Assembly: GCF_014203045.1 (NCBI RefSeq)
Contig: NZ_JACHIF010000012.1
Coordinates: 124,001-188,000, forward strand
Reading direction: 5' to 3'
Origin: Prosthecobacter dejongeii
GTDB taxonomy: Bacteria; Verrucomicrobiota; Verrucomicrobiia; Verrucomicrobiales; Verrucomicrobiaceae
DNA length: 64,000 nt
The notes beneath the pieces were generated by a model. That model made no database searches and had not been told where the DNA came from. It saw only the letters and a program-made list of their open reading frames with translations. Positions within the stretch are counted from its first letter, which is position 1; every line of letters begins with the position of its first letter. Shown in pieces: positions 7,598-39,677 of the stretch. Made by a program: the position numbers and the translations under genes.

Positions 7598-8860
7598 TTA
7601 CGCTAGCCGGGCGGCGGCTCCTTTGAAGCCACCGGCAGGGTCTTCTCCTGCCGGTGAGCACCCGGGATTTTCGATCCGCCAGTGCCGGGGAACTTCCCAC
7701 GGAGCTAGGGTCGCACAGGCCTTGGACTTAAACTCACAGGTCAGTTGCTCCGGCGTCACGCCGATGCATGCCACCACATCCTGCACGCGTTCAGGGTCCC
7801 GGCTCGGTTGCCCGTGCACTCGCACGTGGCGCGCGCCCGTGGCTGCGCGGATTTTTTCTGCGATGGCCCCAGGGCTCAGTTTTCGGCTCGCCACATTGAT
7901 GCCTGGCCCCTCACAGCTCACATACGAAAGGGCATCTCCATTCAATGCCACACAGTCCCAGGTGCGATGACGCCCCAGGGAAAAAAGTTCGCCCGGCTGT
8001 ACGGTATCGTAGCCCAGGCCCACAGCAGGGCTTTCCACCCGCAGCCGCCCCTGCTCCACCGTCGCCCGCACCCCTGGCAGCAGTGTACCCAGGTCCCCCG
8101 CCTCCGTTCGTGGCAGTTCGCTAGCATCGTAGCTGATGGCCCCCGTCTCGCTGGTGCCATAGAGATTGTGCAGCTTCAGGTGAAAACTCTCCCGCACTCG
8201 CGCTTCCAGTTCCAAAGTCAGCGGAGACCCTGCGGAAACGGCCAACCGCACGTGCGAAAGATCCAGCCCTGACATCAGCCAGGCCTTCCACATCGCCGGC
8301 ACACCGGGGAGAAAGACGCGCTCATGCATCGCCAGGGCGTCCACCATGCCCGTGGGAAAGGGTGTGGGCAGCCAGTGTGTGGGCAGGCCATGCAGCAGTG
8401 TCTGTAAAACCGTCGTCGTCAGGCCAAAGCTATGCGCCACACTCAGCGGGGCCAGCGCCACTGCACAGGTCCCTAGGTCCAGCGCGGCGTGGAGGCCATC
8501 CACATCCGCCGCCACCTGTTCCCAGGTGAAAAACTGGCAGCGCCGCAGGCCTGAGCTGCCCACGGTCTGCTTCACCAGTGCTGTGTTTCGCGGCACGCAG
8601 CAGGTCGGCACCCGGCGGCTGCGGTCTTTTTCCACCACCTGCACAGGTCGGCCAGTGAGAAACCCAGCCAGCAGGGCCACGGTGACGTCCAGTCCATCTC
8701 CCTGCGCTAAATAATACCGCCCCAGTCTGCCACAAGTCTGAGGCACCAGCGCCAGCGCAGCCGCCTCCAGGGCATGAAAAGACAACGCACCTCCAGGATG
8801 CCACAGGGCGGTTTCAGCGCCCTGTCGAGTCAGGATTTGTTTCCAGCGTTCAGCAAACAT
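7598..8860 (-). CDS. AMP-dependent synthetase/ligase-like protein, divergent
   Basis: 420-aa adenylate-forming family protein, shorter than typical acyl-CoA synthetases (500-600 aa). HNLYGTSETGAISYD is the A5 motif, VAHSFGLTTTVLQTLLHGL matches the A4 region, and INVASRKLSPGAIAEKIRAATG resembles the A8 hinge. The ATP-binding A3 loop, normally TSGSTGxPK, appears only as KQTVGSSGLRR, and a canonical A10 catalytic Lys motif is not clear at the C-terminus. It may activate an acyl or aryl acid for transfer, or be catalytically altered. It is divergent from the ketosynthase fusion gene (125 bp apart), suggesting a shared promoter region and a shared lipid or polyketide-type pathway. Confidence 0.75.
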   Translation of the reverse strand: MFAERWKQILTRQGAETALWHPGGALSFHALEAAALALVPQTCGRLGRYYLAQGDGLDVTVALLAGFLTGRPVQVVEKDRSRRVPTCCVPRNTALVKQTVGSSGLRRCQFFTWEQVAADVDGLHAALDLGTCAVALAPLSVAHSFGLTTTVLQTLLHGLPTHWLPTPFPTGMVDALAMHERVFLPGVPAMWKAWLMSGLDLSHVRLAVSAGSPLTLELEARVRESFHLKLHNLYGTSETGAISYDASELPRTEAGDLGTLLPGVRATVEQGRLRVESPAVGLGYDTVQPGELFSLGRHRTWDCVALNGDALSYVSCEGPGINVASRKLSPGAIAEKIRAATGARHVRVHGQPSRDPERVQDVVACIGVTPEQLTCEFKSKACATLAPWEVPRHWRIENPGCSPAGEDPAGGFKGAAARLA

Positions 8861-8984
8861 TTGAACTATCCGCCGCGCACGGCTAAACCAGACGGCGCGG
8901 TTGTTGAGCCAGGAGTGTGCCAGCCAGCCACCGTGAGTTCAAGCCTGGGAATCCATATCCCGGTCATCAGCGTTTCTTTTTCCA

Positions 8985-11333
8985 GTGGTCCACGTTTCTT
9001 CCCAGCGCATTCTTATCACCGGAGCCGGCATTGTCTCCCCCCTCGGCCTCGATTGGCTGGAAAATGAAGCTTCTTTTCGTGCCAATCGCACGGCCTTCCG
9101 CCCCGTGACGATGTTCGATGTCAGCCAGCGCATCGCCAAGACCGCAGCCCATGTGGACCTGCCCACAGAGCGGCTTTTTCTCAAAACTCCCATGCGCCGC
9201 CAGCACCTGCTGGATCGCGGTACGCAAATGCTCCTCCTGGCCTTGCGCGAGACCTTGGCCATGGCGAAGATGCCCGGCCTGGACGGCGTGGATGCCATTA
9301 TCATCGGCACCTCCGCCGGGGCCATGGGCATCGGCCAGGAATACTTCCGCCACGCCGCAGGCAGCCCGGTGAAGCAGCCGGGCCAGATCTCCCGCCTGGA
9401 GTTTTACCAGCCCCAGCGCCAGCTCAATGCCATCGCCCAGGAATATGACTGGCATGGCCCCATGATCCTGGTCTCCAATTCCTGCGCCAGCGGGGCTAAT
9501 GCCATCGGCGATGCCATGGCCATGATCCAGACGGGTAAAGCGAAACGCGTCCTCGCCGGCGGGTACGATGCCCTGGCCGAGCTCGTCTATGCGGGGTTCG
9601 ATACCCTCCGCGCCCTCGCCCCCAGCGGCATCCCGCGCCCCTTTGATGCTGCTCGCGATGGGCTCGCCCTCGGTGAAGGGGCCGCCCTCGTCCTCCTGGA
9701 AAGCGAAGCCGCCGCGGCTGAACGCGGGGCCGAAGCCTTCGCCGTGGCCGCAGGCTACACCACCGCGACCGATCTCCACCACCTCACCCAGCCAGATCCT
9801 GAGGGCAAAGCCGCCATCCGCACCATGACCGGGGCCTGCACCCAGGCAGGCATCACTCCTGGCCAGGTCAGCTACATCAATTCCCACGGCACCGGCACCC
9901 CCTACAACGACGTGGCCGAAGCCAGCGCCGTCAAAGCCTGGGCTGGAGAAGACGCCGCCAAAATCGCCCTCAGTTCCACCAAATCCGCCATGGGCCACCT
10001 CCTGGGCGGAGCCGGAGCGGTCGAGGCCGTCATCTGCCTCATGGCCCTGCGCGGCCAGTGGATGCCCGGCAGCCTCAACATCCGCGAAACCGACCCCGCC
10101 GTCTGTTTCGACCTCGTCCACGCTTTCCGTGAAGCCCCCGTCAAGGTCGCCCTCACGAACAGCTTCGGCTTTGGCGGTACCAATGCTACCCTCGTCTTCA
10201 CCGGCGTGGATGCCCCCACCTCTGGCGCCGCCGCCACTCCAGCACCGCATCGCCCCCTGCACATTCTCGGGGCCGGGGCCGTCTCTGCCGCCGGCTGGGG
10301 CACCGCCGCACTCGCCACCGCCATCACGGAAAAAGCCACCCTACCCACCCAGGAAAGCCCGCGCACCGTCGGCACCCGCGAGTGGGAGTGCCTCATCCGC
10401 CCAGCCCCTCCGGCCCCGGCGGATCGCCTGCCCAAATTTCCCCGCCTGCGCCGCGCCAGCCCCATCACCAAATTCAGCATGGCCGCCGCGCTGGAGGCCC
10501 TGGAACAAGCCGGCTACCCCCAGGCCCAAGGCATCGCCCCTGGTCGCCTCGGCATCGTCCAGCTCATGTTCAATGGCTGCGTCCAGTTCAGCGGTAAATT
10601 TTACCACGAAGTCATCGAAACACCCACCCTGGCCAGCCCGCTGATCTTCCCCGAGACCGTTTATAACGCCCCCGCCTCCCACATCGCCGCTTACCTGGGC
10701 GTAGATGGCCCCGCCACCACCCTCATTGGCGAATCCAGCGCCATCATCGAAGCCATCGCCCTGGCCCACACCTGGCTCACCCAGGGACTGGTGGACCACG
10801 TCCTTGTCATCGGCGCTGAGGAATGCGACTGGCTAGGCGCCGAAGCCACCAGCTACTACCACCCGCAGCTTCAGGCCTCCGAAGGTGCCGGGGTTTTGCT
10901 CCTTAGCCTCACTCCAGGCCCTGAGGGAAAACACCAGCTGCGCCTGCGCCACACCCCCGCCCTGGCCTACCACCACGAGGCCGGCAAAGCCGCCCACCTC
11001 CAGGCCCTGGCCACCCGCCCCGAATACAACCAGGCCCAGCACATCACCGGCCTCTCCGGCATCCCCCTCCTCGACCACGCCGAAACCGCCGCTCATCTCG
11101 AGATGAGCGCGGACACTCCTGTCCGCATCGAAAACCCAAGCGGCGAAGCCGCCACTCCTGGCCAAACCACCCGACTCCACCCTCGCCAAATCCTTGGCGA
11201 GACCATGGGAGCCGCCGGAGCCCTGCAACTCGTCCTTGCCGCCACCCTCGCCCGCCAGACCTCCCAGCCCGTCTCCCTCACCCTCCCCGGCAGCCTCTGC
11301 GCCGCCTACGGCGCCGTCGTGGAGGTGGAGTGA
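8985..11333 (+). CDS. Tandem ketosynthase fusion: active KS plus KS-like domain without catalytic Cys
   Basis: 782-aa protein containing two thiolase-fold ketosynthase units. Residues about 6-410 form a FabF/KASII-like domain with a complete triad: Cys167 in SNSCASGAN, His301 in HGTGTPYNDVAEASA, His338 in KSAMGHLLGGAGA, plus NSFGFGGTNATLVF. Residues about 425-780 repeat the fold, but the nucleophile position reads GESSAI (Ser585 instead of Cys), no HGTGT motif is seen, and the KSxxGH motif reads GETMGAAGA. The arrangement resembles a KS-alpha/chain-length-factor pair fused into one chain. The start is GTG 8985; no upstream in-frame ATG exists. No acyl carrier protein, ketoreductase or dehydratase gene lies nearby. 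Confidence 0.85.
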   Translation: MVHVSSQRILITGAGIVSPLGLDWLENEASFRANRTAFRPVTMFDVSQRIAKTAAHVDLPTERLFLKTPMRRQHLLDRGTQMLLLALRETLAMAKMPGLDGVDAIIIGTSAGAMGIGQEYFRHAAGSPVKQPGQISRLEFYQPQRQLNAIAQEYDWHGPMILVSNSCASGANAIGDAMAMIQTGKAKRVLAGGYDALAELVYAGFDTLRALAPSGIPRPFDAARDGLALGEGAALVLLESEAAAAERGAEAFAVAAGYTTATDLHHLTQPDPEGKAAIRTMTGACTQAGITPGQVSYINSHGTGTPYNDVAEASAVKAWAGEDAAKIALSSTKSAMGHLLGGAGAVEAVICLMALRGQWMPGSLNIRETDPAVCFDLVHAFREAPVKVALTNSFGFGGTNATLVFTGVDAPTSGAAATPAPHRPLHILGAGAVSAAGWGTAALATAITEKATLPTQESPRTVGTREWECLIRPAPPAPADRLPKFPRLRRASPITKFSMAAALEALEQAGYPQAQGIAPGRLGIVQLMFNGCVQFSGKFYHEVIETPTLASPLIFPETVYNAPASHIAAYLGVDGPATTLIGESSAIIEAIALAHTWLTQGLVDHVLVIGAEECDWLGAEATSYYHPQLQASEGAGVLLLSLTPGPEGKHQLRLRHTPALAYHHEAGKAAHLQALATRPEYNQAQHITGLSGIPLLDHAETAAHLEMSADTPVRIENPSGEAATPGQTTRLHPRQILGETMGAAGALQLVLAATLARQTSQPVSLTLPGSLCAAYGAVVEVE

Positions 11334-11353
11334 TGGGGACAAAGCGCCCCTCT

Positions 11354-12118
11354 GGACCGTAGGGCGGGGTTGTTCTGCGCCCTAGGGCCAAGTTCTCTCC
11401 CCGTACTCCCTCGCAGAATTCCCCGCCTCTCTTTGACGCCGCCCTCTTTCTGCCGCGCTCCTTTGTCCCCCTCCCCCACCTTCAAAGAAAGGCGGGCAAT
11501 CCGGCGTCGTCCCCTAGGGGCCAAACTGCCACACCCCGCCGGACAAGCCCGCCCTACGGCCAGCTTCGTCCCTCATCCTCCCCGGCAGCCGTTGCATCTT
11601 CGCAGGGGACCTCCGGACCGTAGGGCGGGGTTGTTCTGCGCCCTTTGGCCAAGTTCTCACCCTCGACTCCCTCGCAGAATTCCCCGCCTCTCTTTGACGC
11701 CACCCTTTTTCTGCCGCGCACCCTCGGCCATCGCCTCCACCTTCAATGACAGGCGGGCAATCCGGCGACGTCCCGCCAAGGGCCAAACTGCCACACCCCG
11801 CCGGACAAGCCCACCCTACGGCCAGCTTCGTCCCTCACCCTCCCCGGCAGCCGTTGCATCTTCGCAGGCGGACCTCCGGACCGTAGGGCGGGGTTGTTCT
11901 GCGCTCTAACGCCAAATTCTCTTCCCGGACTCCCTCGCAGAATTCCCCGCCTCTCTTTGACGCCACCCTTTTTCTGCCGCGCACCCTCAACCATCGCCTT
12001 CACGTTCAAAGAAAGGCGGGCAATCCGGCAACGTCCCCCCAGGGCCAAACTGCCGCACCCCGCCGGACAAGCCCACTCTACGAATGACCTCGTCCGTCCC
12101 TCACCCTCCCCAGCGGAC
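11354..12118 (+). repeat. Three tandem copies of a ~262-bp repeat with internal inverted ends
   Basis: Units begin with GGACCGTAGGGCGGGGTTGT at 11354, 11615 and 11878 (spacings 261 and 263). Each carries near its 3' side ACAAGCCCGCCCTACGG, an inverted counterpart of its own beginning, plus the motif CCCCGCCGGACAAG. The third copy loses similarity after about 12085. Open frames across it reflect high GC and not coding. It follows the ketosynthase gene within 21 bp. No transposase is present, so it is a non-autonomous or structural repeat. Together with short flanks it fills the interval 11334-12127, where I see no gene. Confidence 0.85.
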
Positions 12119-12127
12119 TAGAGGCAT

Positions 12128-38391: not shown

Positions 38392-38756
38392 GGAAAACGT
38401 ATCGTGGCATCTAAGGCAAAACTCCAGTTAAAATCCAAGGATCGAAAACCTAACTTCAGCGATCCGTCTTTTTAGTTCAGCACCAGACTATCTCTCGTCT
38501 TCAAACACAGCCCGCGCTCTTGCTTCCCACTGTCGCAACGAGACAGCCCTTATTTTACGACGCCTCCGGCCAATCGTCATGGCGAATGGCGTTGATCAAA
38601 AAATCCGATTCCTCCCGCTTTCCGCTAGAGTCAGGGTTGGTATTTTTTCGAGCTGTTAAAGAGTCAGCTCACCCAGCATCTCACCTGCGAATGAAGGGCA
38701 TGATTGACCTGTGCAGGTGGCACGTTTACAGCCTGCGCGGCCTCGGTCGATTCATC

Positions 38757-39677
38757 ATGGAAAATTTGCTCTATCTCGTCGTCCGTGCATTCCTGGCCTT
38801 CATTCAGGCGCTGCCCGTCCGCTGGGTGGCTCGTCTAGGCCGCTGCGGCGGTGCGATCGCTTTCTGGCTGGATGCACGGCATCGCCGCGTGGCCCTGAAA
38901 AATCTGACGATGTGCTTTGGCCACGAAAAGTCGCCTGAGGAAATCCGCGCCATCGCCCAAGAGAACTTCCGCCGGCTCGGCGAAGTCTATGGCTGCGCCA
39001 TGAAAGGCATGGTCATGAACGATGCGGAGCTCCTCAAAATCTTCTCTGTTAAAGGCGCGGAAGGCGTGCGGGCGGTGGATGCTGAGGGGCGACTGGTGAA
39101 CCGGGTTTTTACTGGCGGCCACTTCGGCAATTTCGAACTGGCCAACCGGATGTCCGCTTTGATCCCTGGGTATCAAGCGGTGGCCACCTATCGCGGCATC
39201 CGCCCGCCGAAGCTCGACCAACTCGTTTACCGGATGCGCACGGTCTCAGGCAATATTTTGGTGGATCGCCGCACAGGTGCAGAGGATTTAAAACGGGCGA
39301 TGGCCGAGGGGGGGAAGTTGCTCATTCTGGCCAGTGATCAGGCAGATCGCAGCGGCGGCCTTGAGTTGCCCTTTCTCGGTTATTATGCCTGGACGACACG
39401 CGCCCCGGTCATCCTCGCCATGCGCTACAAGTGCGTCATCTTTGTGCCGATCTGTTACCGAGTCGGCCTAGGGCAGTGGGTCTTGGAAATTGGCGAGCCC
39501 CTTCGCATGGAAGAAAACGGCAAGCGCCGGAGCGTCGAAGACCTGATGCGCGATATCAACGCCGCACTGGAAGCTGGCGTGCGCCGGGATCCCGCCAACT
39601 GGTTCTGGGTACACGACCGCTGGAAAACCAAGAACCGCCAGCCTCCGCGTGCGGTGGAGGAACCCATGGCGGAGTGA
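38757..39677 (+). CDS. Lipid A biosynthesis acyltransferase (LpxL/HtrB-like)
   Basis: 306 aa from ATG 38757. An N-terminal membrane anchor (NLLYLVVRAFLAFIQALP) precedes the acyltransferase domain. FTGGHFGNFELAN contains the HX4E catalytic pair, and LLILASDQADRSGGLELPFL and PVILAMRYKCVIFVPICYR are family blocks. The enzyme adds a secondary acyl chain to lipid A, supporting a Gram-negative outer membrane. An in-frame extension back to 38520 looks non-native. The gap 38392-38756 has no feature I can support. Convergent with the desaturase gene. Confidence 0.88.
   Translation: MENLLYLVVRAFLAFIQALPVRWVARLGRCGGAIAFWLDARHRRVALKNLTMCFGHEKSPEEIRAIAQENFRRLGEVYGCAMKGMVMNDAELLKIFSVKGAEGVRAVDAEGRLVNRVFTGGHFGNFELANRMSALIPGYQAVATYRGIRPPKLDQLVYRMRTVSGNILVDRRTGAEDLKRAMAEGGKLLILASDQADRSGGLELPFLGYYAWTTRAPVILAMRYKCVIFVPICYRVGLGQWVLEIGEPLRMEENGKRRSVEDLMRDINAALEAGVRRDPANWFWVHDRWKTKNRQPPRAVEEPMAE

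Follow-up and report, generated by a model that had tools for sequence, protein, structure and literature searches.

A single-chain ketosynthase and chain length factor in Prosthecobacter dejongeii and its likely place in a dispersed aryl-polyene-like pathway

A long reading frame of the bacterium Prosthecobacter dejongeii encodes two ketosynthase (KS) folds in one chain, the first with its catalytic residues and the second without them, and this raises the question of what such a protein does and where its partners are encoded. The frame lies in a stretch of 64,000 nucleotides (positions 124,001-188,000, forward strand, of contig NZ_JACHIF010000012.1, assembly GCF_014203045.1), which is here called the window and is part of contig C12 of this genome (G000). 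It is open on the forward strand from a GTG at position 8985 through the stop at 11333, and its product of 782 residues (P0001) is recognised by the frame and its homologues. A preliminary description of this DNA had inferred a single-chain equivalent of a ketosynthase and its chain length factor (CLF). This inference was borne out by overlapping KS and CLF genes in relatives that carry the two parts separately, by a dead and faster-evolving C-terminal half, and by a structural model aligned to the PfaC KS-CLF over both halves. The protein is likely to be a covalently locked KS-CLF that elongates polyene chains bound to an acyl carrier protein (ACP) in a dispersed, aryl-polyene-like pathway.

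Catalytic residues and relations of the two halves

The N-half (residues 1-404, 8985..10196) is an active ketosynthase by its Pfam and NCBIfam matches and its conserved Cys-His-His-Lys residues, with residues 7-366 matching Pfam ketoacyl-synt and Ketoacyl-synt_C. The full triad previously read in this half, namely the nucleophile Cys167 (codon 9483..9485), His301 (9885..9887) and His338 (9996..9998), was confirmed, as these residues and Lys333 are identical in 28/28 N-halves aligned jointly with reference ketosynthases. The CLF-like C-half (residues 425-782, 358 residues, 10257..11330) has a weak ketoacyl-synt match alone and is catalytically dead as judged from its sequence. Among 28 C-halves, the Cys column holds Ser in 19, Pro in 5, Ala in 3, Asp in 1 and Cys in none; His is absent from the first His column in all 28, and the second holds Glu in 25, His in 2 (the window protein not among these) and Asp in 1. 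The window protein carries Ser584, Leu690 (11052..11054, opposite His301) and Glu739 (11199..11201, opposite His338) at these columns. The earlier statement that the second half lacks both the Cys and a catalytic His therefore stands. It had named Ser585 as the replacement, and the joint alignment places Ser584 opposite Cys167, one position away and with the alignment undecided between the two (codons 10734..10739); Ser585 is the invariant one of the two serines across 12 fused proteins.

Over 335 aligned columns the two halves share 17.0% identity, and are thus not a recent tandem duplicate. Mean pairwise identity is 46.1% for the C-half versus 62.9% for the N-half, and the C-half value is lower in 378/378 pairs; the C-half evolves faster than the N-half. 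The C-half is retained whether the pair is fused or split, and its motif FPETV.NAP.SH is invariant in 14/14 aligned C-halves. A short, variable linker (about residues 405-424, 10197..10256) joins the halves, and 23-28 residues separate its flanking motifs in 12/12 fused proteins. The whole chain has solely ketosynthase/thiolase-superfamily matches in Pfam, and further domains of the PfaC type are absent from it.

The phylogeny of each half was examined in a first tree and in two later trees, which omit ApeC and a lone ketosynthase of the same genome and in which 28 Verrucomicrobial loci were thinned to 11; the second later tree also omits the Streptomyces CLF-like sequence sg_CLF. References for type II polyketide synthases (PKS) were plasmid records, and the Ape names of the Escherichia coli genes (ApeO, ApeR, ApeC, ApeH and others) are those which we take to apply, the records giving products only. 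The N-halves form one clade and the C-halves another in all three trees. The N-halves group with E. coli ApeO in two of them (support 92; 98/90), while the C-halves lie apart from all active ketosynthases compared, beside sg_CLF (96/87). The alternatives raised at the outset, that the halves might be close tandem duplicates or that the homologues might be simple FabF enzymes plus unrelated thiolase-fold sequences, disagree with the 17% identity and the separate clades. In profile comparisons, the C-half matches an aromatic CLF with a probability of 75%, and its best match among solved structures is 9s5h chain C (4.8e-14), followed by FabF chains. The C-halves also joined ApeC in the first tree. 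An ApeC-type identity was considered and rejected because this placement involves very long branches, the hhalign probability against E. coli ApeC is 2.3%, and the C-half has 358 residues rather than those of a half-size CLF. A lone ketosynthase of 360 residues in the same genome (C6:240882-241964, reverse strand; L022:1060-2142) keeps the Cys and both His on a very long tree branch and adjoins genes reading as pyrR and a glycolate-oxidase-like protein.

An intramolecular dimer was examined by structure prediction. The AlphaFold2 model of the whole chain, built from 20 alignment rows that all came from the window or the contig scan described below and included split relatives, reached a predicted local distance difference test value (pLDDT) of 71.8 and a predicted template-modelling score (pTM) of 0.80; it was used in place of a 12-row run (pLDDT 65.3, pTM 0.71). 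The top Foldseek match is 6riw, the PfaC KS-CLF, with a template-modelling (TM) score of 0.71 by query length over 919 columns and with both halves aligned, and the remaining 49 matches listed are one-domain ketosynthases at 0.40-0.43. Since a score of 0.71 cannot be reached by one half alone, the predicted arrangement of the halves resembles a KS-CLF pseudo-dimer. The matches listed in a second comparison (VIA-align) span model residues 1-413 only and have no bearing on the C-half, and 6riw is not among the best 50. The structural matches of the N-half include 6kxd and 1tqy.

Distribution and origin of the fused form

Scanning genome contigs yielded 18 loci, whose titles all name Verrucomicrobia(ceae), Prosthecobacter or, in a single isolate, Brevifollis gellanilyticus NBRC 108608 (L007). 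Among 68 genomes of the window's family, KS and CLF are fused in 22, split into two genes in 34 and absent from 5, and seven (G005, G008, G042, G057, G064, G065, G066) were left without an assigned fusion state. The fused form occupies a single reading frame in 21 genomes and two contig pieces in one (G054), and Brevifollis gellanilyticus NBRC 108608 is also fused. Recurrence in 22/68 genomes and in this isolate indicates that the fusion is not due to chance or assembly error. The split form was checked by reading frames in 23 genomes and rests on two separate matches in the other 11, with the halves on different contigs in G032 and G037. All 68 genomes match some ketosynthase, five (G044, G055, G056, G062, G063) at the FabF level only. 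Across a phylum sample of 387 genomes, a C-half profile finds matches in 61 at 1e-10; in 24 of these the match is better than 1e-40, and 17 of those 24 are outside the family; in each of the 13 inspected among these 17 the pair is split, the KS adjoining a CLF-like gene in a different reading frame. All 20 listed genomes of genus g12 in this sample are without a C-half match, though 9 sampled genomes of the same family match (306 further non-matching genomes are unlisted), and the pathway was perhaps lost there.

The split relatives display how the fusion may have arisen. The KS stop and the CLF-like start share 4 nucleotides (ATGA or GTGA) in 25/25 locus rows, which represent 23 distinct genes because three rows are one gene, and AAGGAGG precedes the overlap in 13/25. 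The overlapping genes are presumably coupled in translation, and, to judge from these sequences, the window protein is a fused KS/CLF operon. Its origin would be an operon in which the KS and CLF genes overlapped and the stop/start junction was then lost, and the linker would take over from translational coupling in holding the halves at 1:1.

When 28 loci, each from a different genome, were placed on a concatenated tree, the distribution of the fused state required two changes. A single clade of all fused proteins was rejected by the approximately unbiased (AU) test (p-AU 3.7e-28), and the fused protein of genome G011 falls within an otherwise split lineage. Fusion appears to have occurred at least twice in the family. 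The count is not settled, and a further fusion or a re-splitting may have taken place, because support is modest (81/74) for a single clade of the ten fused rows from the window's genus and because the N-half trees join fused L057 to split L072 (88 in the first tree; 97/90 in both later trees), contrary to the C-half and concatenated trees.

Linkage to one other gene also differs between the two forms. Within the genus, a halogenase-like gene lies at most 20 kb from the KS-CLF on the same contig in 16/22 split versus 0/18 fused genomes (Fisher p 1.5e-6), counting genes of at least 50% identity, leaving out three fused genomes that lack such a gene, and scoring contig breaks as unlinked. For the most part this reflects a single contrast, one clade against another, and G011, in which the fusion occurs inside an intact cluster, speaks against fusion and dispersal being simply linked.

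Partner genes and the proposed pathway

No ACP, ketoreductase (KR) or dehydratase (DH) was recognised among the genes called in the window, so the earlier remark that none is nearby is true locally. It does not extend further, as such genes occur at other loci of this genome, which has two ACPs and a ketoreductase away from the KS-CLF, and stand beside the KS-CLF in relatives. The sole pathway companion in the window is a divergent acid ligase of the adenosine monophosphate (AMP)-binding type (420 residues, 7598..8860, reverse strand), identified by Pfam and by homologues at relatives' KS-CLF loci. A homologue adjoins the KS-CLF in 11/18 loci of the contig scan, one of the 11 being an end fragment only. 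The best NCBIfam matches of the ligase are acyl-CoA and fatty-acid ligases, all far under cut-off. Ligase and KS-CLF share a divergent intergenic region of 124 bp (8861..8984), in which no consensus sigma-70 promoter match was found. Immediately downstream of the KS-CLF gene, at 11349-12127, are three tandem copies of a DNA repeat of about 262 bp, 84-89% identical, which was not found in 11 other stretches compared from the same genome.

Pathway candidates of this genome fall at six loci on four contigs, one on C12, two each on C5 and C1, and one on C3. C5:305.8-308.0 kb holds a KR, an ACP and an LPG_synthase_TM protein, and C5:169.6-171.1 kb a second ACP and a flavin adenine dinucleotide (FAD) oxidoreductase, both checked by Pfam. 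A methyltransferase, a family 2 glycosyltransferase (GT2), a PlsC-like acyltransferase and a FabZ-like dehydratase are encoded at C1:646.7-649.5 kb, a flavin halogenase/monooxygenase-like protein and an LpxL-like acyltransferase at C1:833.5-836.2 kb, and an MMPL exporter, also Pfam-checked and unlinked to the KS-CLF, at C3:455.3-457.7 kb. An LpxL-like gene in the window (38691-39677) was considered as a cluster remnant and rejected, since relatives' clusters match the pair at C1:833.5-836.2 kb instead. The lone C6 ketosynthase was likewise considered as a partner, and has KS-level matches only (24-31% identity) in relatives' clusters, with no clear orthologue. The genome encodes a further paralogue of the halogenase/monooxygenase-like protein at C11:230682-232052, with 41% identity to the copy assigned to the pathway. 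Apart from these genes, a short sequence with a peptide like GLTRGAFAKAHLP.AT.CDASGIG recurs at five places in two stretches of the genome (L032:19708-19983 and L034:12016-12663) and is an interspersed repeat.

A survey of gene neighbourhoods for ACP partners found an ACP and a KR adjoining the KS-CLF in relatives. The gene order is ligase, KS, CLF, KR, ACP in G061 and G067, and ligase, fused KS-CLF, KR, ACP and two flavin enzymes in G011. L136, from a sister family, has a near-complete cluster of KS, CLF, KR, ACP, ligase, FabZ-like DH, MMPL exporter, LolA and halogenase-like flavin enzymes, to which an LpxL-like acyltransferase, deacetylase-like and methyltransferase-like genes, a second ACP-like gene and a membrane protein can be added; six of its genes were named with a Pfam check and the rest from gene reading and matches to the P. 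dejongeii proteins. When 16 proteins of P. dejongeii were compared with L136 and 24 other stretches, 13/16 matched in L136, and the GT2, the PlsC-like protein and the lone C6 ketosynthase had no match there. Additionally, the KR (8e-29), ACP (4e-9), GT2 (2e-49), PlsC-like protein (3e-20) and methyltransferase (7e-8) match the E. coli aryl-polyene cluster (L094).

The partners are also associated with the KS-CLF across the family, as measured by profile searches with thresholds of 1e-6 for ACP, 1e-20 for DH and 1e-60 for the halogenase-like protein. ACP occurs in 59/63 genomes with a KS-CLF versus 0/5 without (Fisher p 1.2e-5), and the FabZ-like DH in 61/63 versus 0/5 (Fisher p 2.0e-6), both genes being unlinked to the KS-CLF in P. 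dejongeii. The halogenase-like protein is found in 57/63 versus 0/5, with 51 at 50% identity or more and 6 by a 39-40% paralogue only. The KS-CLF is co-inherited with ACP and DH.

As to catalysis, length control, starter, product and export, we infer the following course, in which the roles of the KS in condensation and of the CLF in shaping the tunnel are those of established KS-CLF enzymology. The N-half would perform the Claisen condensation, Cys167 receiving the acyl chain from ACP and His301 and His338 aiding decarboxylation of malonyl-ACP. The C-half would do no chemistry, but would pack on the N-half as its pseudo-dimer partner and shape the chain tunnel as a chain length factor. The adjoining divergent ligase may activate the starter, and the other partners, namely the KR, two ACPs, DH, methyltransferase, GT2, acyltransferases, halogenase-like enzyme, LPG_synthase_TM protein, FAD oxidoreductase and MMPL exporter, would be supplied from the other loci. 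A KS-CLF, KR and DH working without a dedicated enoyl reductase would leave a conjugated polyene on the ACP, as happens with aryl polyenes, and this could then be decorated, acylated to a lipid and exported.

Several observations weigh against this proposal. The window protein as a whole stays under curated NCBIfam cut-offs, with fabF, its best-scoring model, at 350 bits against 494 and PRK09185 at 275 against 407, a model that E. coli ApeO passes with 556. The grouping of N-halves with ApeO is unresolved in the third tree, BLAST matches of the N-half to E. coli ApeR and ApeO are about equal, and the C-half fails the profile comparison with ApeC cited above. Model confidence is middling and drops in places (residues 34-69, 111-139, 197-229 and 540-558 among them), and the root-mean-square deviation from 6riw is 7.6. 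The ligase against E. coli ApeH and the MMPL protein against its E. coli counterpart gave no match at 1e-5, ApeI-like matches of 18.8-19.9 bits fall below the 28.5 cut-off, an ApeP-like dehydratase was not found in a search whose own control was silent and uninformative, and no aromatic ammonia lyase (Lyase_aromatic) was found in the genome. The locus is not classed as a true aryl-polyene cluster, because ApeC gave a negative result and ApeO and ApeI/ApeP no clear outcome. The co-occurrence rests on only five genomes lacking the KS-CLF, three of them under 90% complete, which are not independent (two belong to one genus). Finally, the lack of a dedicated enoyl reductase is read from the genes called in the compact L136 cluster, with no family search for such enzymes made; none was recognised there apart from one short-chain dehydrogenase/reductase (SDR), which has the Pfam family named 'Enoyl-ACP reductase' as its best match and whose P. 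dejongeii homologue has 3-oxoacyl-ACP reductase as its best NCBIfam match.

The alternative that survives best is that the fused KS-CLF makes a non-aryl, reduced or hydroxylated fatty acyl chain for a specialised lipid, a housekeeping enoyl reductase completing the cycle so that no polyene results. The missing ammonia lyase, the LpxL-like and PlsC-like acyltransferases and the acyl-CoA and fatty-acid ligases among the sub-threshold matches of the ligase would suit such a product, but the matches of KR, ACP, GT2, PlsC-like protein and methyltransferase to E. coli aryl-polyene genes, the halogenase-like enzymes and MMPL exporter in the set, and the L136 gene content, with its single SDR whose homologue scores as a 3-oxoacyl-ACP reductase, make it rather unlikely. 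It is improbable that the C-half is a docking platform for partners such as ACP and KR while the N-half homodimerises through a second chain; fast divergence and a length about 50 residues below that of a KS would allow this, whereas the pTM of the model, the joint alignment to the PfaC KS-CLF and the 4-nucleotide overlap of the partner gene with the KS gene, like that of annotated KS/CLF pairs on a Streptomyces plasmid (L099), point to a CLF. A housekeeping FabF-like elongation enzyme with a degenerate, roleless tandem copy is scarcely credible despite the top rank of the fabF model, given that the genome has another ketosynthase (L035) which clusters with E. coli FabF and shares 32% identity with the N-half, that the halves are so dissimilar, that the C-half and its invariant motif are retained in fused and split forms, and that the KS-CLF co-occurs with ACP and DH.

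Comparison with known systems and significance

A single-chain KS-CLF that would elongate polyenes has partial counterparts in several known systems. KS and CLF had been described at the outset as separate chains, which overlooks the PfaC KS-CLF didomain of polyunsaturated fatty acid (PUFA) synthases (PDB 6riw); according to PMC12895367, this didomain is a single chain that performs the final elongation. The window protein is similar in having an active KS and a CLF in one chain, and 6riw is its best whole-chain structural match. It differs in that the PfaC KS-CLF is a piece of a megasynthase, whereas the window protein stops where its CLF stops and probably works with separate ACP, KR and DH proteins; the identity between it and 6riw is 17%. 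The further domains in the PfaC chain are DH domains. No report of a stand-alone fused KS-CLF was found in the open-access literature searched, in which the PUFA-synthase didomain is the only single-chain KS-CLF, and absence from print is not implied.

Aryl-polyene systems, as treated in PMC8253772, use ApeR for initiation and ApeO for elongation, with ApeC as chain length factor. The ApeO-ApeC pairs of E. coli, Acinetobacter and Xenorhabdus resemble the window protein in combining a KS with a dead partner, the N-half joining ApeO in two trees and being unresolved in the third, and the E. coli and P. dejongeii genomes both hold KR, ACP, GT2, methyltransferase and LPLAT homologues; unlike ApeC, the window CLF has 358 residues, is fused, and lacks a profile match to the E. 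coli protein. The KS-alpha/KS-beta pairs of type II PKS (actinorhodin, ishigamide) share a near full-size dead partner and overlapping KS/CLF genes (L099), but are separate chains, and Gln replaces Cys in the three aromatic-type CLFs compared, versus Ser, Pro, Ala or Asp in the C-halves.

A protein of similar construction is WUT01498.1 of the Streptomyces sp. NBC_00708 plasmid (CP108998.1), a KS of 788 residues in all, fused to a KS-fold half without Cys. Its identity to the window protein is 30% over 94%, and its C-half is not grouped with those of the window's family in the trees, so that it is probably a separate fusion; this suggests that fusion recurs elsewhere, in Streptomyces. The cluster around its gene (L037:14950-17316) also encodes FabG, an ACP, two dehydratases and two additional KS-family proteins. 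In seven plasmid records, a match spans 80% or more of the window protein.

A discrete single-chain KS-CLF provides a covalently fixed 1:1 pair in which the setting of chain length by the dead half can be studied without co-expressing two genes, and the close relatives with an unfused pair make the effect of fusion directly testable. On a more speculative reading, with the balance slightly against it, stand-alone single-chain KS-CLFs evolve again and again, with two or more origins in this family and probably a further one in Streptomyces, and could take over from the KS/CLF operon overlap. Fusion in the Prosthecobacter-type clade would then accompany the splitting of the pathway among six loci without linkage and keep the one pairing that must be 1:1 while the cluster disperses, the pathway still being inherited and lost as a unit. 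A call of an aryl-polyene cluster in Verrucomicrobiota has already been published (PMC9865893). The present findings suggest that an aryl-polyene-like pathway can exist scattered over six loci, in which case genome mining that relies on clusters would presumably recover fragments only.

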